Under the pieces are notes generated by a model. That model did no database searches. It was not told where the DNA came from and was given only the letters and a program-made list of their open reading frames with translations. The position numbers and the translations under genes are program-made. A stretch of 64,000 bases of DNA from Actinomycetota bacterium (GTDB lineage: Bacteria > Actinomycetota > Acidimicrobiia > Acidimicrobiales > Ilumatobacteraceae): NCBI GenBank assembly GCA_016870215.1, contig VGCD01000003.1:62001-126000 (forward strand), written 5' to 3'. Each line of letters opens with the position of its first letter. The stretch's first letter is position 1. Positions 677 to 52,408 of this stretch are shown in pieces.

Positions 677-1951
677 GTGGGCGCCTCGTCGACTCTTCAG
701 CACCCTGATGTGCGCATCAACCCGATGCGGCTGCTCTCACGCATTGCATCACTTGCCGACATCTCACCCATCACCGGTGGCGGAAACTGCCGACTTGCCT
801 TGACTCCAGAGGACGGTCATGGCCGAGACCTCGTGGTTGGCTGGATGAGAGAGCTCGACCTGGACGTGAGCATCGATGTGGTCGGCAACATCATCGGCAC
901 TTGGAGTTGTGCATCGGGTTCTCCAGTGATGACCGGTTCGCACATTGACACGGTACGCACGGGCGGTCGTTTTGACGGAAACTACGGAGTACTCGCAGGT
1001 CTCGAGGTCATCCAGAGTTTGAAGGACGCCGGCATCACACCGAGCAGACCTCTCGCAGTGGGCATTTTCACCAACGAGGAAGGCGCACGTTTCGCACCAG
1101 ACATGCTCGGCTCGTTGGTGTACGTCGGCGGCATGAGCGTCGAAGAAGCCCTGGACGTTGTCGCAATCGATGGTGCTCGCTTTGCCGATGAACTTCAAAA
1201 CATCGGTTACAACGGACCCAACCCATGTCCCGGGCCCACACCTCATGCTTTCGTTGAGTTGCACATCGAACAAGGTCCTGTTCTCGAGAGCATCGGATAC
1301 CGACTCGGAACGGTGACTGGCGTTCAAGGAATCTCTTGGCAGGAACTCACCATTTCGGGACAGTCCAACCATGCGGGCACGACGCCAATGTCAATGCGAA
1401 AAGATCCGGCTTATGTGGCAGGTCGAATCATGGTGTTTCTTCGTGATCTTGCCACCCGATACGGGGCCCCTCAAGTGTGCACAGTAGGAAAAATTGACCT
1501 CGTTCCGAACTTGGTCAATGTCGTGCCATCAACAGCCACCATGACAGTCGACATTCGAAACACCGATGAGGCCACGCTTCAGCGCGCAGAGACGGAACTC
1601 TCCGACTTCCTCGCCCTCATCTCGGGCGAGGAAAACGTCTCCATTTCAACACGAACCTTGGCGCGATTCGAGCCGGTCATCTTTGACGAACGGGTCGTCG
1701 GCATCATCGACAATGTTTGTGCGTCATTCGATGTTCCAGCGCATCGTCTTCCCTCCGGAGCAGGACACGACGCACAGATGTTCGCGCGAGTCTGCCCGAC
1801 AGCAATGATCTTCGTTCCAAGCATCAAGGGAATCAGCCACAATCCAGCCGAGTTGACAGACGACGTCGACCTCACGCTCGGCGCTGACGTATTGCTGCAC
1901 ACCATGCTCCGGCTCGCCAGCACAACCTTCACGACTGCGAGCAAGTCATGA
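677..1951 (+). CDS. M20-family N-carbamoyl-L-amino-acid hydrolase / allantoate amidohydrolase
   Basis: A 424-residue zinc amidohydrolase of the HyuC/AllC family, which removes a carbamoyl or ureido group and releases ammonia and CO2. The metal-site motifs are intact: H89 in GSHIDT, D100 in GRFDGNYG, the Glu pair 134-135 in FTNEEG and H196 in ELHIEQG; the SNHAGTTPM segment (230-238) and a C-terminal ISHNPAE complete the family pattern. The GTG start follows a TACACT box by 6 nt; ATG at 725 is a less likely alternative. It is the first gene of an operon and overlaps the next gene by ATGA. N-carbamoyl-L-amino acids, allantoate and 3-ureidopropionate cannot be told apart from sequence alone; the neighbouring purine-oxidase-like genes favour a purine- or hydantoin-derived ureide. 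Confidence 0.87.
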   Translation: MGASSTLQHPDVRINPMRLLSRIASLADISPITGGGNCRLALTPEDGHGRDLVVGWMRELDLDVSIDVVGNIIGTWSCASGSPVMTGSHIDTVRTGGRFDGNYGVLAGLEVIQSLKDAGITPSRPLAVGIFTNEEGARFAPDMLGSLVYVGGMSVEEALDVVAIDGARFADELQNIGYNGPNPCPGPTPHAFVELHIEQGPVLESIGYRLGTVTGVQGISWQELTISGQSNHAGTTPMSMRKDPAYVAGRIMVFLRDLATRYGAPQVCTVGKIDLVPNLVNVVPSTATMTVDIRNTDEATLQRAETELSDFLALISGEENVSISTRTLARFEPVIFDERVVGIIDNVCASFDVPAHRLPSGAGHDAQMFARVCPTAMIFVPSIKGISHNPAELTDDVDLTLGADVLLHTMLRLASTTFTTASKS

Positions 1952-2892
1952 GCCGCATCATCACCGTCGGTGCCGCCCAACTAGGCCCAGTACAACTGTC
2001 TCACAGCCGTACCGATGTGGTGGCTCGACTAATGGCTTTGATGAATCAGGCTGCTGATCGCGGATGCGACCTCGTGGTGTTCCCAGAATTGGCACTGACG
2101 ACCTTTTTCCCTCGTTGGTTTCTCGACGACATTTCAGAAGCAGATCACTTCTACGAAACAGAGATGCCATCCCCCGCCGTTCAATCACTTTTCCAATGCG
2201 CAAAGGATCGTTCCATCGGATTCTCCCTCGGGTATGCCGAGCTCACCACAGATGGACATCGCTTCAACACGCAGGTGCTCGTTGATAAGACCGGGTCAGT
2301 TGTCGGCAAATATCGCAAAGTTCACATTCCGGGGCACGCGTCAAACGAACCAGGTCGGCCTTTTCAACACCTCGAGCGCTACTACTTTGAACCATCCGAT
2401 GAGGGCTTCGGCGTATGGCACGCCTTCGACGCCAAAGTCGGGATGATGATTTGCAACGACAGACGGTGGCCAGAGACATATCGCGAAATGGGTCTCCAAG
2501 GCGTCGAGATGATTCTGTGTGGATACAACACCCCGATTCATTACGTCCCAGACCCGAGCCAGGACATTTTGCAAGGGTTCCACAACGCGCTCGTCATGCA
2601 GGCCGGGGCCTACCAAAACGGGACCTGGGTTGTGGGTGTCGCCAAAGGTGGCGTGGAAGAAGGTGTCGACAGCTTGGCTCAGAGCGCCATCATCGCGCCG
2701 TCCGGACAAATCGTTGCGCAGACACTCACTACTGATGATGAACTCATTGTTGCTTCATGTGATCTCGACTGGTGCAAGCGCTACAAGGAAACACTCTTTG
2801 ACTTCGACAAGTACCGACGACCAGAGCTCTACAAACGACACGTCGAACAGCGCGGAGTGAAGTGGGATGGCAATCCAACGGTGAGACCGTGA
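1948..2892 (+). CDS. N-carbamoyl-D-amino-acid hydrolase (nitrilase superfamily)
   Basis: A 314-residue nitrilase-superfamily amidase that closely follows the Agrobacterium D-carbamoylase pattern: PELALTTFFPRW around E47, KYRKVH with K124, and ICNDRRWPE with C169. These form the Glu-Lys-Cys catalytic triad. The family hydrolyses N-carbamoyl-D-amino acids to D-amino acids, CO2 and ammonia in the cytoplasm. Its start overlaps the upstream hydrolase stop (ATGA, 1948-1951) and its stop overlaps the next gene (GTGA), so it is translationally coupled on both sides. The presence of both an L-type and a D-type carbamoylase suggests either non-stereospecific hydantoin use or a pathway with a non-chiral ureide. 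The family call is strong; the physiological substrate is inferred. Confidence 0.9.
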   Translation: MSRIITVGAAQLGPVQLSHSRTDVVARLMALMNQAADRGCDLVVFPELALTTFFPRWFLDDISEADHFYETEMPSPAVQSLFQCAKDRSIGFSLGYAELTTDGHRFNTQVLVDKTGSVVGKYRKVHIPGHASNEPGRPFQHLERYYFEPSDEGFGVWHAFDAKVGMMICNDRRWPETYREMGLQGVEMILCGYNTPIHYVPDPSQDILQGFHNALVMQAGAYQNGTWVVGVAKGGVEEGVDSLAQSAIIAPSGQIVAQTLTTDDELIVASCDLDWCKRYKETLFDFDKYRRPELYKRHVEQRGVKWDGNPTVRP

Positions 2893-3962
2893 CGACGCTC
2901 GCCTCGCACCAAACTGCGGGCCTCGTCTGCTCTCACCACCATCTTTATTCGTCGCTCGCTCGCGGAATGCCGGCTCCTCCAGCAGTACCGACGTCGTTTC
3001 GAGGGATTCTCGAAAACGTCTGGTGGCGACTTGATGCAGCACTTGATCTCGACTCCATCTACTGGTCCGCTGCCCTCGGTGCAGTCGAGGCGCTTCGAGC
3101 CGGTTGCACCACGATCATCGATCACCATGAGAGCCCATTCGCTATCGAGGGCTCTCTCGATGCAATTTCGCGCGCATGTGACGACCTTGGCGTGCGGCAC
3201 ATCTTGTCGTATGGAGTAACTGATCGTTGGAGTAACGGCTCTCTTGTCACTGACATACCGGCCTCCATGACTGATGGCGCGCGGCTCGGCTTGGCCGAGA
3301 CCGAGCGTTATGTCTCAGGTGGAGGAAACGCGATGGTTGGTGTCCATGCGTCCTTTACCTGCTCAAACGAGACCCTGGAGGCCGCCGCTGACCTTGCTCG
3401 CCGACTCAACATCGGAGTGCACATTCATGTCGCAGAGGGACCTGACGATAAAGATGCCGCGCAACGCATTCGTCATCTTGTTGACGACACCTGGCTACTC
3501 GTTCATTGCGTTCATCTAGAAGACGACTTGCCTGGAACAATCGTGCACAATGCGCGTTCCAATATGAACAACGCCGTTGGCTATGCACGACCGGCTCGAT
3601 TCAAGAATCGTGTCGTGCTCGGCACAGACGGAATCGGTGCAGACATGTTCGAAGAAGCCCGAATCGCCTATGCCCGTCTTCGCGAGCATGATGTCACCGC
3701 CACACCAGACACAGTCTGGCAATGGCTCGAAAACGGCTACGCGTTGGCACCTGCATCGCGCAATGACGTCGTCTCCTGGAATTACGACCACATGAATGAG
3801 CCCTGGAGACTTGCGTTCACCACGGGGGTCACGGCGACGGATGTGGTCATTGAAGGTCAGCCAGTATTGAAGGAAGGGCGTGTGACCACTGTCGACGTGG
3901 ATGAGATCCGAGCCAAGGCAGAAGAAGCTGCCAAACGTCTTCATCAAAGGTTGGAATCATGA
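2889..3962 (+). CDS. SsnA-like amidohydrolase, short N terminus
   Basis: A 357-residue metal-dependent amidohydrolase resembling SsnA and 8-oxoguanine/guanine deaminase-type proteins. Metal ligands are visible: SHHHLYS at the extreme N terminus, VHASF and HVAEGPDD in the middle, and GTDGIGADMFEEAR with the metal Asp. Relatives normally have 50-60 residues of beta-sandwich before the HxH strand. Here the GTG start, chosen for its GTGA overlap with the D-carbamoylase stop, leaves only about 15 residues. A longer frame begins at ATG 2862 but adds just nine residues. The C-terminal part that closes the beta-sandwich (VVIEGQPVLKEGRV) is present. It probably deaminates or opens a heterocycle handled by the downstream molybdenum hydroxylase. 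Its last codons overlap the next ATG. Confidence 0.8.
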   Translation: MTTLASHQTAGLVCSHHHLYSSLARGMPAPPAVPTSFRGILENVWWRLDAALDLDSIYWSAALGAVEALRAGCTTIIDHHESPFAIEGSLDAISRACDDLGVRHILSYGVTDRWSNGSLVTDIPASMTDGARLGLAETERYVSGGGNAMVGVHASFTCSNETLEAAADLARRLNIGVHIHVAEGPDDKDAAQRIRHLVDDTWLLVHCVHLEDDLPGTIVHNARSNMNNAVGYARPARFKNRVVLGTDGIGADMFEEARIAYARLREHDVTATPDTVWQWLENGYALAPASRNDVVSWNYDHMNEPWRLAFTTGVTATDVVIEGQPVLKEGRVTTVDVDEIRAKAEEAAKRLHQRLES

Positions 3963-5280: not shown

Positions 5281-7538
5281 GCACTGTCAAAACACGACGA
5301 GACGTCCTCGGCACCAATGCACTTCGACCAGATGGCGCAGCAAAGGTCAAGGGTGAGTTTTCATTCTCATCTGATATGTGGTCAGACGGAATGTTGTGGG
5401 GTGCGACGTTGCGCTCCCCGCACCCGTATGCACGAATTGTGCGGATTGATACGAGCCCTGCGCTCGCAATCGATGGTGTCCGTGCCGTACTCACGGCTGA
5501 AGATGTACCCGGCGTTCTCACGTATGGCTTGATTGATCAAGATCAGCCGGTGTTCGCAGTTGACTACGTGCGCTACATGGGAGAACCAGTGGCGGCTGTT
5601 GCAGCGGACCATCCAGAAACGTGTCGACGCGCACTCGCTGCGATCATCGTCGAATACGAGGTGTTGACTCCTCTCACTGATCCAGAGTTGTCGCTCGATA
5701 CCTCAACACCGGCTATCCACCCGAATGGAAATGTGTTCCGACACCAACGCATCGTTCATGGCGACACATCGGTCGTCGGTGACGTTGTCGTCGAGGGCGA
5801 GTACGAAATCGGTATGCAGGACCAGGCGTTTCTTGGTCTCGAGGCCGCGATGGCGATACCTGACGCCGACGGTGCAGGCATCGAGCTGCACATCGCCACA
5901 CAGTGGCTGCACGAGGACCAGAAACAAATCGCTGCGTGTCTGGGTCTTCCCATTGAGCGCGTCCGTTTGGTGCTTGGGGGCGTTGGTGGTGCCTTCGGAG
6001 CGCGAGAGGACATCAGCCTGCAGGTGCACAGTTGTCTGCTGGCGTTGACCACGAAGCGTCCGATCAAGATGCAGTACAGCCGCGAAGAAAGCTTTTTCGG
6101 CCACGTTCACCGACACCCGGCTCGAGTCCACATCCGTCACCACGCGAAAGCCGACGGAACCATCGTCAAGATCGAAGCACGCATGCTCTTTGACGGTGGT
6201 GCGTATGCCTCCACTTCATCAGCGGTGTTGATTAACGGTATTACACACATTCAGGGTCCGTATCGGTGCCCAAGCGCAGTGGTCGACGGATTTGCTGTGC
6301 GAACGAACAACCCGCCATGTGGCGCCATGCGCGGCTTTGGCGTCGTGCAGGCCTGTTACGCGCACGAGTCACAGATGGATCGATTGGCAGAGGCTTGCGG
6401 GCTGTCTCATGTGGAGATTCGCCTACGAAACGCCATGCGCACTGGAGACACCCTCATCACGGGTCAGCCTGTTGAAAGTGTCGCTCCCGTTGAACGCTGC
6501 ATTCGAGAGACCGATGCACTTCCCTTGCCGCCACCACTGATCGACTCACCAGATGTCTTGGAACTTCCTGGCGGAACGGGTCTGACATCACGCTCAGAGA
6601 ACATTCGCCGTGGAATTGGTTGGGGCGTGTCGATCAAGAACATCATGTACAGCGAGGGCTTCGACGACTACAGCACCGCGCGATGCACCCTCCAAGACGG
6701 CGTCGTCGCGTTGAAGTTTGCAACCTCAGAAGTCGGACAAGGTTTCGTCACACTTGCGCCGCAAATTGCCCGCAGTGTCCTTGGTGTGACCGACGTGGTG
6801 GTGGAACCTATGGACACCACAATCGGTTCAGCAGGATCCACATCGGCATCACGCCAAACATGGATGAGTGGTGGTGCAGTTGACGGTGCATGCCGCCTCG
6901 TTCGCGAACGACTGTTCGAACACGTCGGTCTCGCGAACGGCATCGATGCTCTGCGTCTCGTCATCGAAGACGACGAAATTGTCGACACCATGGGCACCTT
7001 GCGCATCAAAGTCACAGATGCAGCACCGGGCGTTCGGTTCGAAGAGACGTTCGAGCATCACCACCGACCCACCGAGGATCTTGATGAAAACGGTCAAGGA
7101 AACTGTCACGTGGCTTTTGCCTTTGTCGCACACAGGGCTGTGGTCGATGTCGATGTTGAACTAGGACTTGTGAAAGTGGTTCAAGTTGCGACGGCACAAG
7201 ACATCGGACGCGCTCTCAATCCGCTTTCAGTGCAAGGACAGCTCGAAGGTGGCATCGCTCAAGGTCTTGGCTTGGCAGTGATGGAAGAAGTCATCGTTCA
7301 GGACGGGCGCGTACGCAATCCCAGTTTCACCGACTACCTGCTTCCGACAGCCCTCGACGCACCAGAGGTGGTGTATAGCCTCATCGAAGAACCAGACCCG
7401 CAGGCTCCTCTCGGTGCCAAAGGTGTCGGCGAGCCCCCCTGCATTTCTGTGACGCCAGCAATCGCGTCAGCCATCAGACAAGCAACTGGTCGCGATATTC
7501 GACGAGTTCCGGTGCGTCCTCAAGACATCTGCCTGTGA
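5277..7538 (+). CDS. Xanthine dehydrogenase-type molybdopterin-binding subunit (PucD-like)
   Basis: A 753-residue catalytic subunit of the xanthine oxidase family, which hydroxylates N-heterocycles using water. Mo-cofactor motifs include GGVGGAFGARED (about residues 235-246) and GAMRGFGVVQ (about 352-361). A SASRQTWMSGGAV segment resembles XdhD/PucD rather than animal xanthine oxidase, and GAKGVGEPP near the C terminus holds the expected catalytic Glu. ATG at 5277 overlaps the small-subunit stop (ATGA). Length and subunit sizes match the Bacillus pucCDE set. Xanthine or hypoxanthine is the default guess; the carbamoylases upstream would also suit other ring systems. No cofactor-insertion gene (xdhC or mobA type) is in the window. 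Confidence 0.9.
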   Translation: MSTVKTRRDVLGTNALRPDGAAKVKGEFSFSSDMWSDGMLWGATLRSPHPYARIVRIDTSPALAIDGVRAVLTAEDVPGVLTYGLIDQDQPVFAVDYVRYMGEPVAAVAADHPETCRRALAAIIVEYEVLTPLTDPELSLDTSTPAIHPNGNVFRHQRIVHGDTSVVGDVVVEGEYEIGMQDQAFLGLEAAMAIPDADGAGIELHIATQWLHEDQKQIAACLGLPIERVRLVLGGVGGAFGAREDISLQVHSCLLALTTKRPIKMQYSREESFFGHVHRHPARVHIRHHAKADGTIVKIEARMLFDGGAYASTSSAVLINGITHIQGPYRCPSAVVDGFAVRTNNPPCGAMRGFGVVQACYAHESQMDRLAEACGLSHVEIRLRNAMRTGDTLITGQPVESVAPVERCIRETDALPLPPPLIDSPDVLELPGGTGLTSRSENIRRGIGWGVSIKNIMYSEGFDDYSTARCTLQDGVVALKFATSEVGQGFVTLAPQIARSVLGVTDVVVEPMDTTIGSAGSTSASRQTWMSGGAVDGACRLVRERLFEHVGLANGIDALRLVIEDDEIVDTMGTLRIKVTDAAPGVRFEETFEHHHRPTEDLDENGQGNCHVAFAFVAHRAVVDVDVELGLVKVVQVATAQDIGRALNPLSVQGQLEGGIAQGLGLAVMEEVIVQDGRVRNPSFTDYLLPTALDAPEVVYSLIEEPDPQAPLGAKGVGEPPCISVTPAIASAIRQATGRDIRRVPVRPQDICL

Positions 7539-47011: not shown

Positions 47012-47734
47012 CTACAAGTGGCGGTCGAACACGCCGATGCTCTTGATACGGCGTTCAAGGTGAAACTCCATGGCACGCCGAGCAAGTGCGTTGACTTCAT
47101 TCACCACCGGCGAATCTTCCGTCTCAAGTGCCTGAGCCAATGCCCCACCAAGAATGCGCCGCATGAGTTCCAATGCAGCAAAAGACACCGGAGTACCAGC
47201 ACGGCATTGACCGCACAGCGCCCCGCCTTCCACGAAGTCGAAAGCAACCAGCTCGGCACGCTCGTCACAGCGTGCGCATGAATCGAGCACCGGGCCCGCA
47301 CCATCTGCGGCGAGCACTTTCCAATAAAAGGCGCCCAGTAGAAGTGGTGACTGCTGTCGGTTCAGCTCGACGAGTGCGCGAGAGAGCAAGTCATAGAGAT
47401 GTTCCACCGGCTCCCGGTCCGGTGTGAGTGTGTCGATGGCCTCCGCCATGGAGAGGCCCTGGCCTAAACGAGCAAAATCTGTTCGTAACTTTGTGTGCGT
47501 GTGCACCAATTCCACTTGCTGAATTGTGTCTAGCGATCGACCGAGGTGCAATTGGATGTCGACTGTGCTGAGTGGCTCGAGGCGCCCTCCGAAGCGAGAC
47601 TTTCCCTTGCGCACACCCTTTGCAACAGCACGAACCTTTCCGTGATCGCGAGTGAGCAACACAACCACTCTGTCTGCTTCGCCAAATTTGTATGTGCGAA
47701 GGACAACCGCTTCGTCGCGATAGCTCTTCACCAT
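47012..47734 (-). CDS. recO: DNA repair protein RecO
   Basis: A 240-residue recombination mediator: N-terminal OB-fold (DEAVVLRTYKFGEADRVVVLLT and GVRKGKSRFGGRLEPLS), a helical core, and a zinc finger seen as CARC...CGQC around residues 150-178. It helps load RecA on SSB-coated DNA in the RecFOR pathway. ATG 47734 lies 10 bases after the stop of the cis-prenyltransferase-like gene, where the functional uppS is usually found in actinobacteria. Confidence 0.94.
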   Translation of the reverse strand: MVKSYRDEAVVLRTYKFGEADRVVVLLTRDHGKVRAVAKGVRKGKSRFGGRLEPLSTVDIQLHLGRSLDTIQQVELVHTHTKLRTDFARLGQGLSMAEAIDTLTPDREPVEHLYDLLSRALVELNRQQSPLLLGAFYWKVLAADGAGPVLDSCARCDERAELVAFDFVEGGALCGQCRAGTPVSFAALELMRRILGGALAQALETEDSPVVNEVNALARRAMEFHLERRIKSIGVFDRHL

Positions 47735-47744
47735 TTTGAAGTCA

Positions 47745-48383
47745 TCACGAGTCAAGTCCGCCAAAACGCCGGTTTCGGCGGGTGAAGTCATCAACGGCCA
47801 ATTCCAAATCTGCAGCTGACACGTTCGTCCAACCAAGGTCAAGAAAGACCAGTTCGCTGTATGCCAATTCCCACACCAGTGACGTCGGCAATCGTGTGGG
47901 GGGACCGAGGATGACCACCAAATCTGGCTCGCGTGGACTTGGCGCCAACACGGCAGTCGCAATAGCTGCGTCATTGAGAGGTTCACCACTGTCTTTGGTT
48001 CTCAGGGCATTCAACACTCGCGCAAATCGGTTGTGACCATCAGGGTCTGGCTCAATGCAAATACTGAGCCCATCGTCAGCTTCAAGGACCCACCGCGGAT
48101 GTTGACCGTCACCGATGTTCTTTATCTTTCCCAATGATGACAGCGACTCATCCATGTTCCGTGTCTCACTCAAAGACAGCGACTCCCCACCAAAGGGATA
48201 CAACGTGAGCCATCGCGTACCGGCGCGAGCCACCCCAGCTGCGAGCGCATCCACTCGATCTCTCCACTGAACCGCATCAAACGCAAGCCACTCGTGCGGC
48301 GTGCCACCAGCAACGACAACATGACCCAGTTCAGCGTCGTCACGGTCGTCGAGCGAGGGACGACTCGTCGGTTTCGGCGACAT
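47745..48383 (-). CDS. Cis-prenyltransferase-like protein lacking catalytic residues (NgBR/Nus1-like partner candidate)
   Basis: A 212-residue UppS-fold protein. The C terminus is clearly UppS-like: WELAYSELVF keeps the Glu (E177) of the AYAE motif and TRRNRRFGGL keeps the R-x-G motif (R206-G208). The TRWLTLYPFGGES segment (56-68) matches the strand before ENW. The catalytic DGNGRW is replaced: HVVVAGGTPHEW aligns by eye with Gly27 at the essential Asp and only W32 kept. In the substrate motif RTSGExRxS the first Arg is Ile158 and the Ser is Pro166; Arg164 remains. It cannot be a normal enzyme. The neighbouring UppS lacks exactly the kept parts, so a heteromer is likely. It starts the recO-glyS run and is divergent from uppS. 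Confidence 0.8.
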   Translation of the reverse strand: MSPKPTSRPSLDDRDDAELGHVVVAGGTPHEWLAFDAVQWRDRVDALAAGVARAGTRWLTLYPFGGESLSLSETRNMDESLSSLGKIKNIGDGQHPRWVLEADDGLSICIEPDPDGHNRFARVLNALRTKDSGEPLNDAAIATAVLAPSPREPDLVVILGPPTRLPTSLVWELAYSELVFLDLGWTNVSAADLELAVDDFTRRNRRFGGLDS

Positions 48384-48408
48384 AGGTGGATTCTCTCACC
48401 AGATACCA

Positions 48409-48422
48409 GTCACTAGGGTGAC
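48409..48422. promoter_or_regulatory. Palindrome GTCAC-TAGG-GTGAC in the 45-base divergent region
   Basis: 5-bp inverted arms with a 4-base centre. It contains TAGGGT (48414-48419), which ends 9 nt before the uppS GTG and may be either its -10 box or, as AGGG, its ribosome site. It may be an operator for both genes; this is untested inference. Confidence 0.35.
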
Positions 48423-48428
48423 ATCGCC

Positions 48429-49136
48429 GTGACAGATGCACTTTCGACCACTACTAAGGGCCACACGAGCCAACCACCGGTGCACATTGCTTGCATCATG
48501 GATGGCAACGGACGTTGGGCGAAGCGTCGTGGCTTGCCGCGCACCGCTGGACATACGGCAGGCGAGGAAGCCCTTGCCGCCGTCGTCAGAGCTGCGGCAC
48601 AGCGAAATATCGGTTGGCTGACAGTCTTTGGTTTCTCTACTGAGAACTGGGTACGACCTCGTGCCGAGGTTCGTCACATCCTTGGGCTCCATCGCAAACT
48701 TTTCGGTCGCATCGACGAAATGAACCAGAACAATGCACGCATCAACTGGATCGGGCGACCATTCGACGAGCCAGGTGCACGTACTCCGGTGTACGTGCAA
48801 CGAGCAATCCGTAAGGCCATGGCCGACACCGAACACAACACCGGGCTCGTCGTGACGGTTGCATTCGACTATGGCAGTCGAGCAGAACTTGTACGAGCTG
48901 CTCGTGCATGCAAGGACACTGACTCACCCATCGACGCAGAAACCATCGACCACAAGATGTATGCACCTGACCTTCCGCCCGTCGATGTGCTAGTGCGCAC
49001 TTCCGGAGAAACGCGAATCTCAAATTTTCTTCTCTGGCAAATTAACGGGGCGGCAGTGTATTTCACGGAAAAGACATGGCCCGACTTTGACTCCGACGAA
49101 CTTGACCGAGCTCTGAAACTTGTCCGCAGCAACTGA
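48429..49136 (+). CDS. uppS: Undecaprenyl diphosphate synthase family protein, catalytic-type subunit lacking the RxG motif
   Basis: A 235-residue cis-prenyltransferase. The N-terminal catalytic part is intact: D25 in CIMDGNGRWA, H42, FSTENW (69-74), FDYGSR (147-151) and RTSGETRISNF (190-200). The family adds isopentenyl units to farnesyl diphosphate to make the C55 lipid carrier for the cell wall. Two conserved C-terminal elements are missing: AYAE reads NGAA, putting Ala209 at the Mg-binding Glu, and the chain ends at LVRSN before the RRFGG motif. Both are kept in the divergent homologue 45 bases away. GTG 48429 is the only sensible start. The helicase gene begins inside its last codons. 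Confidence 0.92.
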   Translation: MTDALSTTTKGHTSQPPVHIACIMDGNGRWAKRRGLPRTAGHTAGEEALAAVVRAAAQRNIGWLTVFGFSTENWVRPRAEVRHILGLHRKLFGRIDEMNQNNARINWIGRPFDEPGARTPVYVQRAIRKAMADTEHNTGLVVTVAFDYGSRAELVRAARACKDTDSPIDAETIDHKMYAPDLPPVDVLVRTSGETRISNFLLWQINGAAVYFTEKTWPDFDSDELDRALKLVRSN

Positions 49137-50997
49137 GGCAATCGCGGCACTGCGTCGCATCACTTCTCGCCTACCTTCCGCCGAAGAGCGGCAGGGGCAA
49201 GTCGACATGGTGGCAGAGGTGGCACAGGCACTTGACAAAGGTCGTCATGTGGTTGTGCAAGCAGGCACCGGTACCGGTAAGTCGCTTGGATACATCGTTC
49301 CGGTTGTCCTCAACGGCAAACGCACCGTCATTGCCACCGCAACCAAGGCTCTGCAAGATCAGTTGAACGCCAAGGACCTTCCCCTCGTGGCGGAAGAATT
49401 TCCTGGGGCATTCACATGGACCGTCCTGAAAGGTCGCAGCAACTACGTGTGTCTGCAACGACTCGATGAACAACTGAACCCGGACTCACACCTTGACTTC
49501 GACGACAACGAGCAAACAAAGAAAACCGCGCTCAAAGTAAAGGCATGGCTTCCGTCAAGCGACACGGGCGACATCGAAGAATTTCCAGGACGCCTCACCG
49601 ACGAGACACGACGTCAGTTCACCGTCTCTAGTGAAGAGTGCCCAGGCGCTCGACGCTGTCCGCGTGGCAACGAGTGCCTAGCTGAAGCGGCACGACACCG
49701 AGCTGCAGCTTCAGACATCATCGTCGTGAATCTGCACCTCTATGGCCTCGACATCGCCAGCGATGGTGCAGTGTTGCCGGAACACGAAGTTGTCGTGTTC
49801 GACGAGGTTCATCAGCTTGAGTCGGTGATGAGCGATGCAGTCGGCACAGCCATTGGACCAGGTCGTCTTAAGGCGCTCGTATCAGTAGTCCGAGCCGTGT
49901 TGGTCGACAGTTCAGCTTGCGACTCGCTCGCAGGCCGAGCTGCAGTTCTTCGAACAACTTTGGTGCCACACCTCGCAACCCGTTTTCAATCCGGTCTTCC
50001 GGCAAACATTGGCAAGGCATTGGGTGACGTGCGCGGTGATGCCTCTTCAATTCTCGGAGAATTGCGTGCTGTTGACAGCACCAACGACGCACTCAAGCAA
50101 AAAGTGTTGCGCGCTCAGACACAGGTGTCGAGGCTCATCGAAAGTGTCGATATATGCCTTGCGGCGAACGACAATCAAGTTTTGTTTGTCGAGGGCACCG
50201 AGGAGCGGCCGCTGTTGCGGGTGAGTCCACTACACGTCGGCGACTTCATGAATGCCGGTGTGTGGCATAAACGCACTGCCGTGCTTACTTCGGCGACTGT
50301 GCCCCTCAGCCTTCCACAGCGAGTCGGACTACCAGACGAGGGCACGGAATCACTGTCGGTTGACAGCCCGTTCGACTATCATTCAATGTCGAAGTTGTAT
50401 TGCTCACCGGAATTTCCCGACCGAAACTCCCCACAGTTCGATGAGTTCGTACATGACGAACTGGAAGCTCTCATCAATGCGGCCGGAGGCCGAACTCTCG
50501 CGCTGTTCACCAGCAACCGGGCACTTCGTCTGGCGGTTACAGCGCTACGTGAGCGCGTGAGCTTTCCCATTGTGACGCCACTCGAGACACCACGTCAGCG
50601 ACTGATCGAAGAGTTCTTGTCCGATGAAGCCACGTGCATCTTTGCGTCGCAGTCGTTTTTTCAAGGTGTCGACCTTCCAGGTCGCACGTTGTCCCTCGTC
50701 GTGCTGGACAAACTTCCCTTCCCACGTCCAGATGATCCGTTGCTGGAAGCACGACGCGATGCCGTCGGGAGACGAGCTTCATTCAACATCATCGATCTTC
50801 CGATGGCAGCCACTTCACTTGCGCAAGCCGTTGGCCGCCTCATCAGAACCAACGAAGACCGTGGCGTCGTGGCCGTTCTTGACAATCGACTTGCGAATGC
50901 CGGGTACCGTCGCACGCTCATAGACGTACTGCCGCCAATGGCGCGCACTCGGCATCGAGATGAAGTGGAAGCTTTTCTACGCGACATCACGACATAA
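49120..50997 (+). CDS. DinG/XPD-like superfamily 2 ATP-dependent helicase
   Basis: A 625-residue helicase. Walker A AGTGTGKS is at 48-55, the Fe-S cluster cysteines are C111 and C174, C180, C186, the DEVH box lies in VVFDEVHQL, and motif VI QAVGRLIRT is near the C terminus. It unwinds DNA with 5'-3' polarity in this family. No N-terminal exonuclease domain is present, unlike the Firmicutes DinG. The TTG start overlaps uppS by 17 bases; the next ATG (49207) would cut the Q-motif, so TTG is preferred. It is convergent with era. Confidence 0.9.
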   Translation: MSAATEAIAALRRITSRLPSAEERQGQVDMVAEVAQALDKGRHVVVQAGTGTGKSLGYIVPVVLNGKRTVIATATKALQDQLNAKDLPLVAEEFPGAFTWTVLKGRSNYVCLQRLDEQLNPDSHLDFDDNEQTKKTALKVKAWLPSSDTGDIEEFPGRLTDETRRQFTVSSEECPGARRCPRGNECLAEAARHRAAASDIIVVNLHLYGLDIASDGAVLPEHEVVVFDEVHQLESVMSDAVGTAIGPGRLKALVSVVRAVLVDSSACDSLAGRAAVLRTTLVPHLATRFQSGLPANIGKALGDVRGDASSILGELRAVDSTNDALKQKVLRAQTQVSRLIESVDICLAANDNQVLFVEGTEERPLLRVSPLHVGDFMNAGVWHKRTAVLTSATVPLSLPQRVGLPDEGTESLSVDSPFDYHSMSKLYCSPEFPDRNSPQFDEFVHDELEALINAAGGRTLALFTSNRALRLAVTALRERVSFPIVTPLETPRQRLIEEFLSDEATCIFASQSFFQGVDLPGRTLSLVVLDKLPFPRPDDPLLEARRDAVGRRASFNIIDLPMAATSLAQAVGRLIRTNEDRGVVAVLDNRLANAGYRRTLIDVLPPMARTRHRDEVEAFLRDITT

Positions 50998-51946: not shown

Positions 51947-52408
51947 ATGGCGTCTTCTCAGTTCGGATTGGATCCGCGCAAGTGGTTCGAGCGTTCGCTT
52001 CCTCAGACACTCCAGATCGCACTTTGGCTTCTGTACATCAACGGCGCTTTCGCGCTTATCGAATATCTGGACGGCACTGACGACCTCGGCTATCTCCGCG
52101 GACGTTCTGCGCTCGGCGCCGTGGCAGGACTCATCGTCTGCGTCTTGTTCATTGGTTCTGGTTTTCTCATCGCCAACGAAAAGAGACTGGGCTACAAGGC
52201 AGCCATTGCTGCTGCGTTCTCCCCCTTCGTCATGCGAGTCTGGGCTTACTCGGACTTCGAAAGACAGATGGGTGTGAGTGTCTCACTGTGGGACAAGCTC
52301 ACGGGCAATACCCTCATCGGATTCGCGTTTGATGTCGCCCTCTGTGCCCTCATCCTTCATCCCATGAGCCGGAATCACCAGCGTGTGTGGTTTCGAAAGA
52401 TGAGTTGA
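51947..52408 (+). CDS. Integral membrane protein of unknown function
   Basis: A 153-residue protein with about four membrane helices (roughly 24-41, 56-76, 82-98 and 123-140), an Arg-Lys-rich N terminus and a basic C-terminal tail. No family is recognised. An AACACT hexamer 6 nt before the ATG could act as a -10 box. The gene lies between era (divergent) and a MaoC-type gene 26 bases downstream. Confidence 0.7.
   Translation: MASSQFGLDPRKWFERSLPQTLQIALWLLYINGAFALIEYLDGTDDLGYLRGRSALGAVAGLIVCVLFIGSGFLIANEKRLGYKAAIAAAFSPFVMRVWAYSDFERQMGVSVSLWDKLTGNTLIGFAFDVALCALILHPMSRNHQRVWFRKMS

Follow-up and report, generated by a model that had tools for sequence, protein, structure and literature searches.

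In the human cis-prenyltransferase, the RxG tail of the NgBR chain crosses the dimer interface into the active site of DHDDS, and the heteromer has a kcat about 400-fold that of homodimeric DHDDS, as excerpts of PMC7573591 describe. Excerpted accounts also present yeast Nus1 as lacking the canonical RxG motif, and the archaeal protein MM_0014 as an active homodimer although it has no RxG (PMC8131916). In Methanosarcina mazei, the paralogous chains MM_0618 and MM_1083 are described as jointly making a glycosyl carrier lipid (PMC8131916, citing Emi et al. 2019), while homodimeric cis-prenyltransferases are the kind that excerpts of PMC7839719 describe for bacteria. Two-chain prenyl synthases of bacterial origin, such as HepS/HepT and HexA/HexB, the latter described in part as carrying the catalytic motifs on one chain, resemble the system reported here in their composition but are trans-prenyltransferases. 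The fold of trans-prenyltransferases is unrelated to that of cis-prenyltransferases. Bacterial UppS is an antibiotic target. We found no report of a bacterial heteromeric cis-prenyltransferase in the open-licence literature. Heteromeric cis-prenyltransferases are known in eukaryotes and archaea; a bacterial case, its separate origin and the gene layout described below appear to be new within that literature. A bacterial family of mostly aquatic members appears to have divided the enzyme for its cell-wall lipid carrier, with the chemistry on one protein and the partner-reaching part on the other, a division also found in human cells for the related dolichol enzyme.

The locus lies in a stretch of 64,000 nucleotides, the whole of which we refer to as the window. 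Re-reading its ORFs placed the putative catalytic subunit of a heteromeric UppS at 48429..49136 on the plus strand (235 aa, GTG start) and the putative accessory, non-catalytic subunit at 47745..48383 on the minus strand (212 aa, ATG start), divergent and 45 bases apart (48384..48428), just as the initial annotation had them. In-frame stops at 48414 (catalytic) and 48398 (accessory) exclude more upstream starts. With a gap this short, two independent ordinary promoters seem less likely than shared or embedded ones. Ten bases past the accessory-gene stop lies recO (47012..47734, minus strand), the ancestral neighbour of uppS. On the other side, a DinG-type helicase gene (49120..50997, plus strand; candidate starts TTG 49120 or ATG 49207) follows the catalytic gene directly or overlaps it, the two frames meeting at 49120-49136. 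A dinG gene stands beside the catalytic gene in 106/106 split loci, that is, loci with this two-gene arrangement (duplicates included). Among 102 pairs found on one fetched locus (duplicates included, starts chosen by script), the gap is −39 to 99 bases in 98 and 186, 700, 2280 and 2281 in the remaining four. In some relatives, as at L074, a 701-codon ORF with no Pfam match (1788-3893, minus strand) separates the pair by about 2.3 kb, and both split genes are retained.

Both proteins pass the curated cut-off of Pfam PF01255 (27 bits), making them members of the cis-prenyltransferase superfamily. The plus-strand protein matches at 1.5e-64 (218 bits) over positions 1-209 of the 219-position profile, and the minus-strand protein at 1.9e-10 (41.1 bits) over positions 145-219 only. 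The plus-strand protein retains D25, N27, R29, FSTENW and R190/R196/S198 and stops short of RxG, an absence already noted for this gene and now found to be general over 118 catalytic sequences. Behind its stop, no aligned tail was present in the three forward frames read, and the dinG frame comes next. An R-x-G string within the last 25 residues occurs in 1/118 catalytic sequences (L174: R-Q-G, out of register), and five catalytic genes with matches running slightly past profile position 209 (L189, L190, L198, L199, L200) all end without RxG on reading. The minus-strand protein has G27 at the position of the catalytic Asp and I158 and P166 in the substrate motif, as previously seen; its retained E177 and RRFGG belong to the segments W171-E172-x-A-Y175-x-E177 and R203-x-R-R-F-G208. 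The substitution of Ala for the AYxE Glu in the catalytic chain stands for the window (A209) and fails as a general state, this position being Lys in 52, Ala in 23, Arg in 15 and Glu in 7 of the 118 sequences, with other residues in the rest. Loss of in-register RxG is general among the 118, and loss of the Glu nearly so. Seven catalytic chains (L114, L120, L123, L138, L181, L182 and L197) retain an AYxE-type Glu without RxG, which hints that the tail was lost first. Compared with complete UppS, all 118 catalytic chains also show FGFSTENW for YAFSTENW and Asp for the Asn of NYGG (window protein positions 67, 68 and 147).

The remark that each protein lacks what the other holds extends well beyond this genome. 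The same complementary pattern recurs in more than 100 distinct sequences of each chain, which is far beyond chance. The catalytic Asp is present in 118/118 distinct catalytic sequences and 0/110 accessory ones, where Gly takes its place in 110/110, whereas in-register RxG occurs in 0/118 catalytic and 108/110 accessory sequences, both misses being contig-end cuts. For reference, we used 34 complete UppS, 30 from the class outside the family (L003-L032) and four exceptions from within it (L033-L036); all 34 carry R-x-G (last 70 residues searched). Conservation of at least 90% among these 34 proteins, together with identity in E. coli UppS, defined 65 positions, of which the catalytic chain alone retains 40, the accessory chain alone 11, both chains 7 and neither chain 7. 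The catalytic-only columns include D26, N28, R30, H43, S71, E73, N74, W75, R194, E198, R200 and S202, and the accessory-only ones are G61, G147, E174, L191, A210, Y211, E213, R239, R241, R242 and G244 (E. coli numbers). Neither chain combines the catalytic Asp with a C-terminal RxG, the mark of a homodimeric UppS. What is found instead is the pattern of heteromeric cis-prenyltransferases, an Asp- and substrate-binding chain without RxG beside a same-family chain without Asp and with RxG. Homodimeric UppS (E. coli IspU) belongs to the same family, shares the active-site residues of the catalytic chain and represents the ancestral state of the same slot, but there one chain holds everything, and in the split pair neither does.

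We estimate a probability of roughly 0.88 that the two genes encode unlike chains of one undecaprenyl-type diphosphate synthase. The two-subunit bacterial undecaprenyl diphosphate synthase originally proposed draws support from the sequence tests, namely complementarity, co-occurrence and the lack of a complete enzyme in the genomes checked. The best reading is an obligate heteromeric UPP synthase that would work like DHDDS/NgBR and would have arisen separately, by local duplication of uppS. The plus-strand chain would bind farnesyl and isopentenyl diphosphate with Mg and do the chemistry; the minus-strand chain, its own active site lost, would act as the dimer partner, its C-terminal RRFGG tail, and probably also its WExAYxE segment, being laid into the partner's active site. 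Physical pairing, mutual dependence, a C55-class product and use in peptidoglycan are what we infer for such an enzyme. It would share with DHDDS/NgBR (Rer2/Nus1 in yeast) the pairing of a catalytic chain with a pseudo-enzyme chain that supplies its RxG tail to the other, but differs in its divergent adjacent genes, in the absence of any visible membrane segment and in its presumed C55-class carrier. Compared by description, MM_0618/MM_1083 resembles the proposed enzyme as a two-chain carrier-lipid enzyme of a prokaryote, but comes from a separate domain of life.

RxG loss alone does not prove a heteromer, since the motif can be absent from working enzymes, as MM_0014 and Nus1 show. The argument for two chains is therefore their complementarity, and it is with this that a different reading of the locus has to contend: that the plus-strand chain forms a tail-less homodimer like MM_0014, and that the minus-strand chain serves as a regulator or in another capacity. 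Such a homodimer has a precedent in the activity of MM_0014, as described in excerpts of PMC8131916, and the catalytic chain models well as a UppS (AlphaFold2 pLDDT 87; Foldseek TM 0.84 to UppS structures). The accessory chain, however, retains the conserved residues missing from the catalytic chain, and preservation of RRFG in 108/110 sequences would be unexpected for a separate regulator. The accessory gene also accompanies the split catalytic chain, and none turned up in the genomes that have a complete UppS instead. We consider the tail-less homodimer improbable.

If the two chains do form one enzyme, its product might still be a side product, with another enzyme making undecaprenyl diphosphate, given that sequence does not reveal product length with certainty. 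The window's genome (G000; 2.0 Mb, 55 contigs, 92% complete) contains exactly two PF01255 domains, and the expectation that it holds no complete UppS elsewhere was borne out by the lack of a third match at E<=10. The single-contig relatives G002, G027 and G157, as well as G071, have exactly two matches apiece, one ending at profile positions 208-209 and the other covering the C-terminal part only. A third, complete UppS was thus found neither in G000 nor in the three single-contig relatives, and these genomes carry PF00953 proteins, which would need such a carrier; proteins of this MraY/WecA type, users of the product, are present in 5/5 genomes checked. Both observations make a side-product enzyme very unlikely, and we retain the heteromeric undecaprenyl-type synthase as the preferred interpretation.

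The two genes travel together across the family. In 102/108 loci with a catalytic gene, the fetched piece also contains the accessory gene, which lies on the opposite strand (same-genome duplicates included, and many loci near-copies; 87 distinct catalytic and 83 distinct accessory sequences). The other six comprise three contig ends (L040, L081, L110), one accessory gene beyond the fetched piece (L038) and two loci, L039 and L079, from one contig with a frameshifted copy. A further 36 catalytic-gene loci, which brought the distinct sets to 118 catalytic and 110 accessory sequences, have the accessory gene at more than 150 bits in 32; the exceptions are two loci at contig ends, one with an interrupted gene and one with the two genes about 9 kb apart. 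Surveying 221 genomes of the family, we detected PF01255 matches in 208 (two in 183, three in 9, one in 16), and the 13 without a match are all 84% complete or less. Among the matches listed for these 208 genomes, only those of G408, G240, G484 and G399 cover the full profile (1-219), and none of the four genomes has a second match. The matches listed reach E 1.1e-62; weaker second matches were counted, mostly without inspection, and might include a complete gene truncated at its N-terminus. When 396 genomes of the phylum were searched with the accessory profile, scoring at most 8 candidates per genome, near full-length hits (E<=5.5e-51) were confined to the 11 family members, and the next best reached 1.2e-30. 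Beyond the family, 17 genomes of the order and class with weaker or extra matches showed no tail-less pattern that would point to further split events: 25 of their 32 matches run from 1 to 219 (16 genomes having one or more of these), three begin late yet extend to the profile end, and the four that stop early (G253, G099, G211, G270) are all at contig ends.

The check for one gene without the other yielded no convincing case. Most apparent single-gene relatives reflect contig ends; the others include a pair spaced about 9 kb apart and two draft genomes whose accessory copy is interrupted. Apart from the four genomes with a complete UppS and G400 with a fragment of one, the 16 single-match genomes have an accessory gene at a contig end (G031, G320, G325), a catalytic gene at a contig end (G315, G451) or catalytic fragments at contig starts (G357, G367, G444). 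In G300 the accessory gene has 1.2 kb of contig left, and spacings of 2.3 kb between the two genes occur in its genus; the single-match genomes G468 and G333 have both genes, the accessory one of G468 being cut by the contig end. The pair lies about 9 kb apart in G387. Two genomes count against a heteromeric UppS: G333 (93% complete) has both genes with the accessory ORF interrupted, and G298 (L079) has a frameshifted accessory gene beside an intact catalytic gene. On the contig of G298, matches in more than one frame are also seen for a gene at about 6367-7504 and for the ORF region that separates the two genes.

At the protein level, the accessory chain is constrained. Its dN/dS has a median of 0.072 and a maximum of 0.175 (95 usable of 233 close pairs), so the gene is under purifying selection; the catalytic chain has a median of 0.05 (68 pairs). 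Among 55 accessory sequences with a median pairwise identity of 38%, the invariant columns include W171, E172, L173, Y175, E177, R203, R205, R206, F207 and G208. The structure of the accessory chain is predicted with confidence, and the chain is predicted to keep the cis-prenyltransferase fold. Its model reaches a Foldseek TM of only 0.54-0.63 to UppS, which counts against a heteromeric UppS. That the accessory gene is a decaying duplicate, a pseudogene in progress, as the missing catalytic Asp, the loss of most substrate residues and the interrupted copies in two draft genomes might suggest, is hardly credible in view of the dN/dS of 0.07 and the invariant W, Y, E and RxRRFG columns, together with the confident predicted fold.

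The proposal of a duplication that left the accessory chain in the usual place of uppS beside recO agrees with gene order elsewhere in the class. The ancestral order is dinG< uppS> recO>: recO follows uppS on the same strand in 30/34 complete loci, and dinG was seen in 15/34, always on the opposite strand (many pieces are short). At split loci, the accessory gene occupies the old uppS place, with recO present in 98/106, and the catalytic gene heads toward dinG. In hhalign comparisons, the accessory profile is closer to the complete UppS of the class (E 4e-28) than to the catalytic chain (5e-9), and a PDB search with it gave 1.7e-23 for E. coli UppS (1x08) against 3e-7 for human NgBR (named NUS1). 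This proximity to the class's own and other bacterial UppS argues for duplication in place and an origin apart from the eukaryotic pair. By descent, the accessory chain does not belong to the NgBR/Nus1 family: besides being nearer to bacterial UppS, it shows no N-terminal membrane segment by inspection, residues 1-20 being polar and of low confidence in the model. In a tree of the UppS domain (108 columns), accessory chains form one clade and catalytic chains another; the accessory clade is placed among the class's complete UppS (85/93) and the catalytic clade outside most of them, with weak support. Given the few columns and long branches, the origin argument leans more on gene order, and the exact sisters are unsure. 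A single origin in or near the family ancestor, by duplication of uppS, is most likely. The copy beside recO would have become the accessory chain, and the inverted copy facing dinG would have stayed catalytic and dropped its tail.

The family members with a complete UppS bear on this history. G408 (L192) has it in the ancestral dinG-uppS-recO-glyS layout. G240 and G484, of one genus (L191, L194, L214, L215), have neither split gene; dinG is directly adjacent to recO, and a different contig carries a complete UppS of another type, with the tails RRRRKG and RRRRMG. A RecO/DinG/GlyRS tree groups G408, G240 and G484 at a weakly supported base of the family, with a support of 16 for monophyly of the split members, and FastTree places them inside the split clade at 0.81. 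They have no firm basal place and may reflect a later reversal to the non-split state. For the same reason, we did not count G240/G484 as a joint loss of both split genes. A complete UppS of the G240/G484 type is also present in G399 (L193; 72% complete, no recO detected), and in G400 (L301; 81% complete) a contig edge cuts off all but an N-terminal part of a complete-type UppS, which has the YAFST signature. A split-kind accessory chain was found in neither of these incomplete genomes (72% and 81%), and G027 and others sharing their genus code carry the split pair. Possibly one gene replaced the pair in G399 and G400, contamination being another possibility in such incomplete genomes; if real, a replacement by a single gene favours one joint function for the two chains.

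We regard it as probable that this family replaced an essential homodimeric UPP synthase with an obligate two-chain enzyme, independently of the eukaryotic and archaeal ones, and that the gene in the ancestral place is the dead partner. If so, it is a natural replicate of the division of labour in DHDDS/NgBR, in which each alignment column indicates whether a conserved UppS residue works in the adjacent subunit; Y211, E213, R239, R241, R242 and G244 (E. coli numbers) are the candidates for action in trans. The roles that E213 and the C-terminal tail have in homodimers would become separately testable, as both lie on a different gene from the active site. An independent bacterial heteromer in which no membrane anchor is seen would also be a simple system for studying why cis-prenyltransferases become heteromeric, and would allow one to ask if chain length or activity is set by the partner and to identify the residues that function in trans.

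The nearest named contigs bear titles such as Ilumatobacteraceae, Acidimicrobiaceae, acIV and plain Actinomycetota, and some of the titles are odd. Several public MAG contigs that carry the pair (L089, L091, L097, L104, L107) are titled Bifidobacterium breve; their content contradicts these titles, which look wrong. Elsewhere in the window, between era and a MaoC-domain gene, an ORF of 153 residues (51947-52408, plus strand) is hydrophobic by eye and has no Pfam match.
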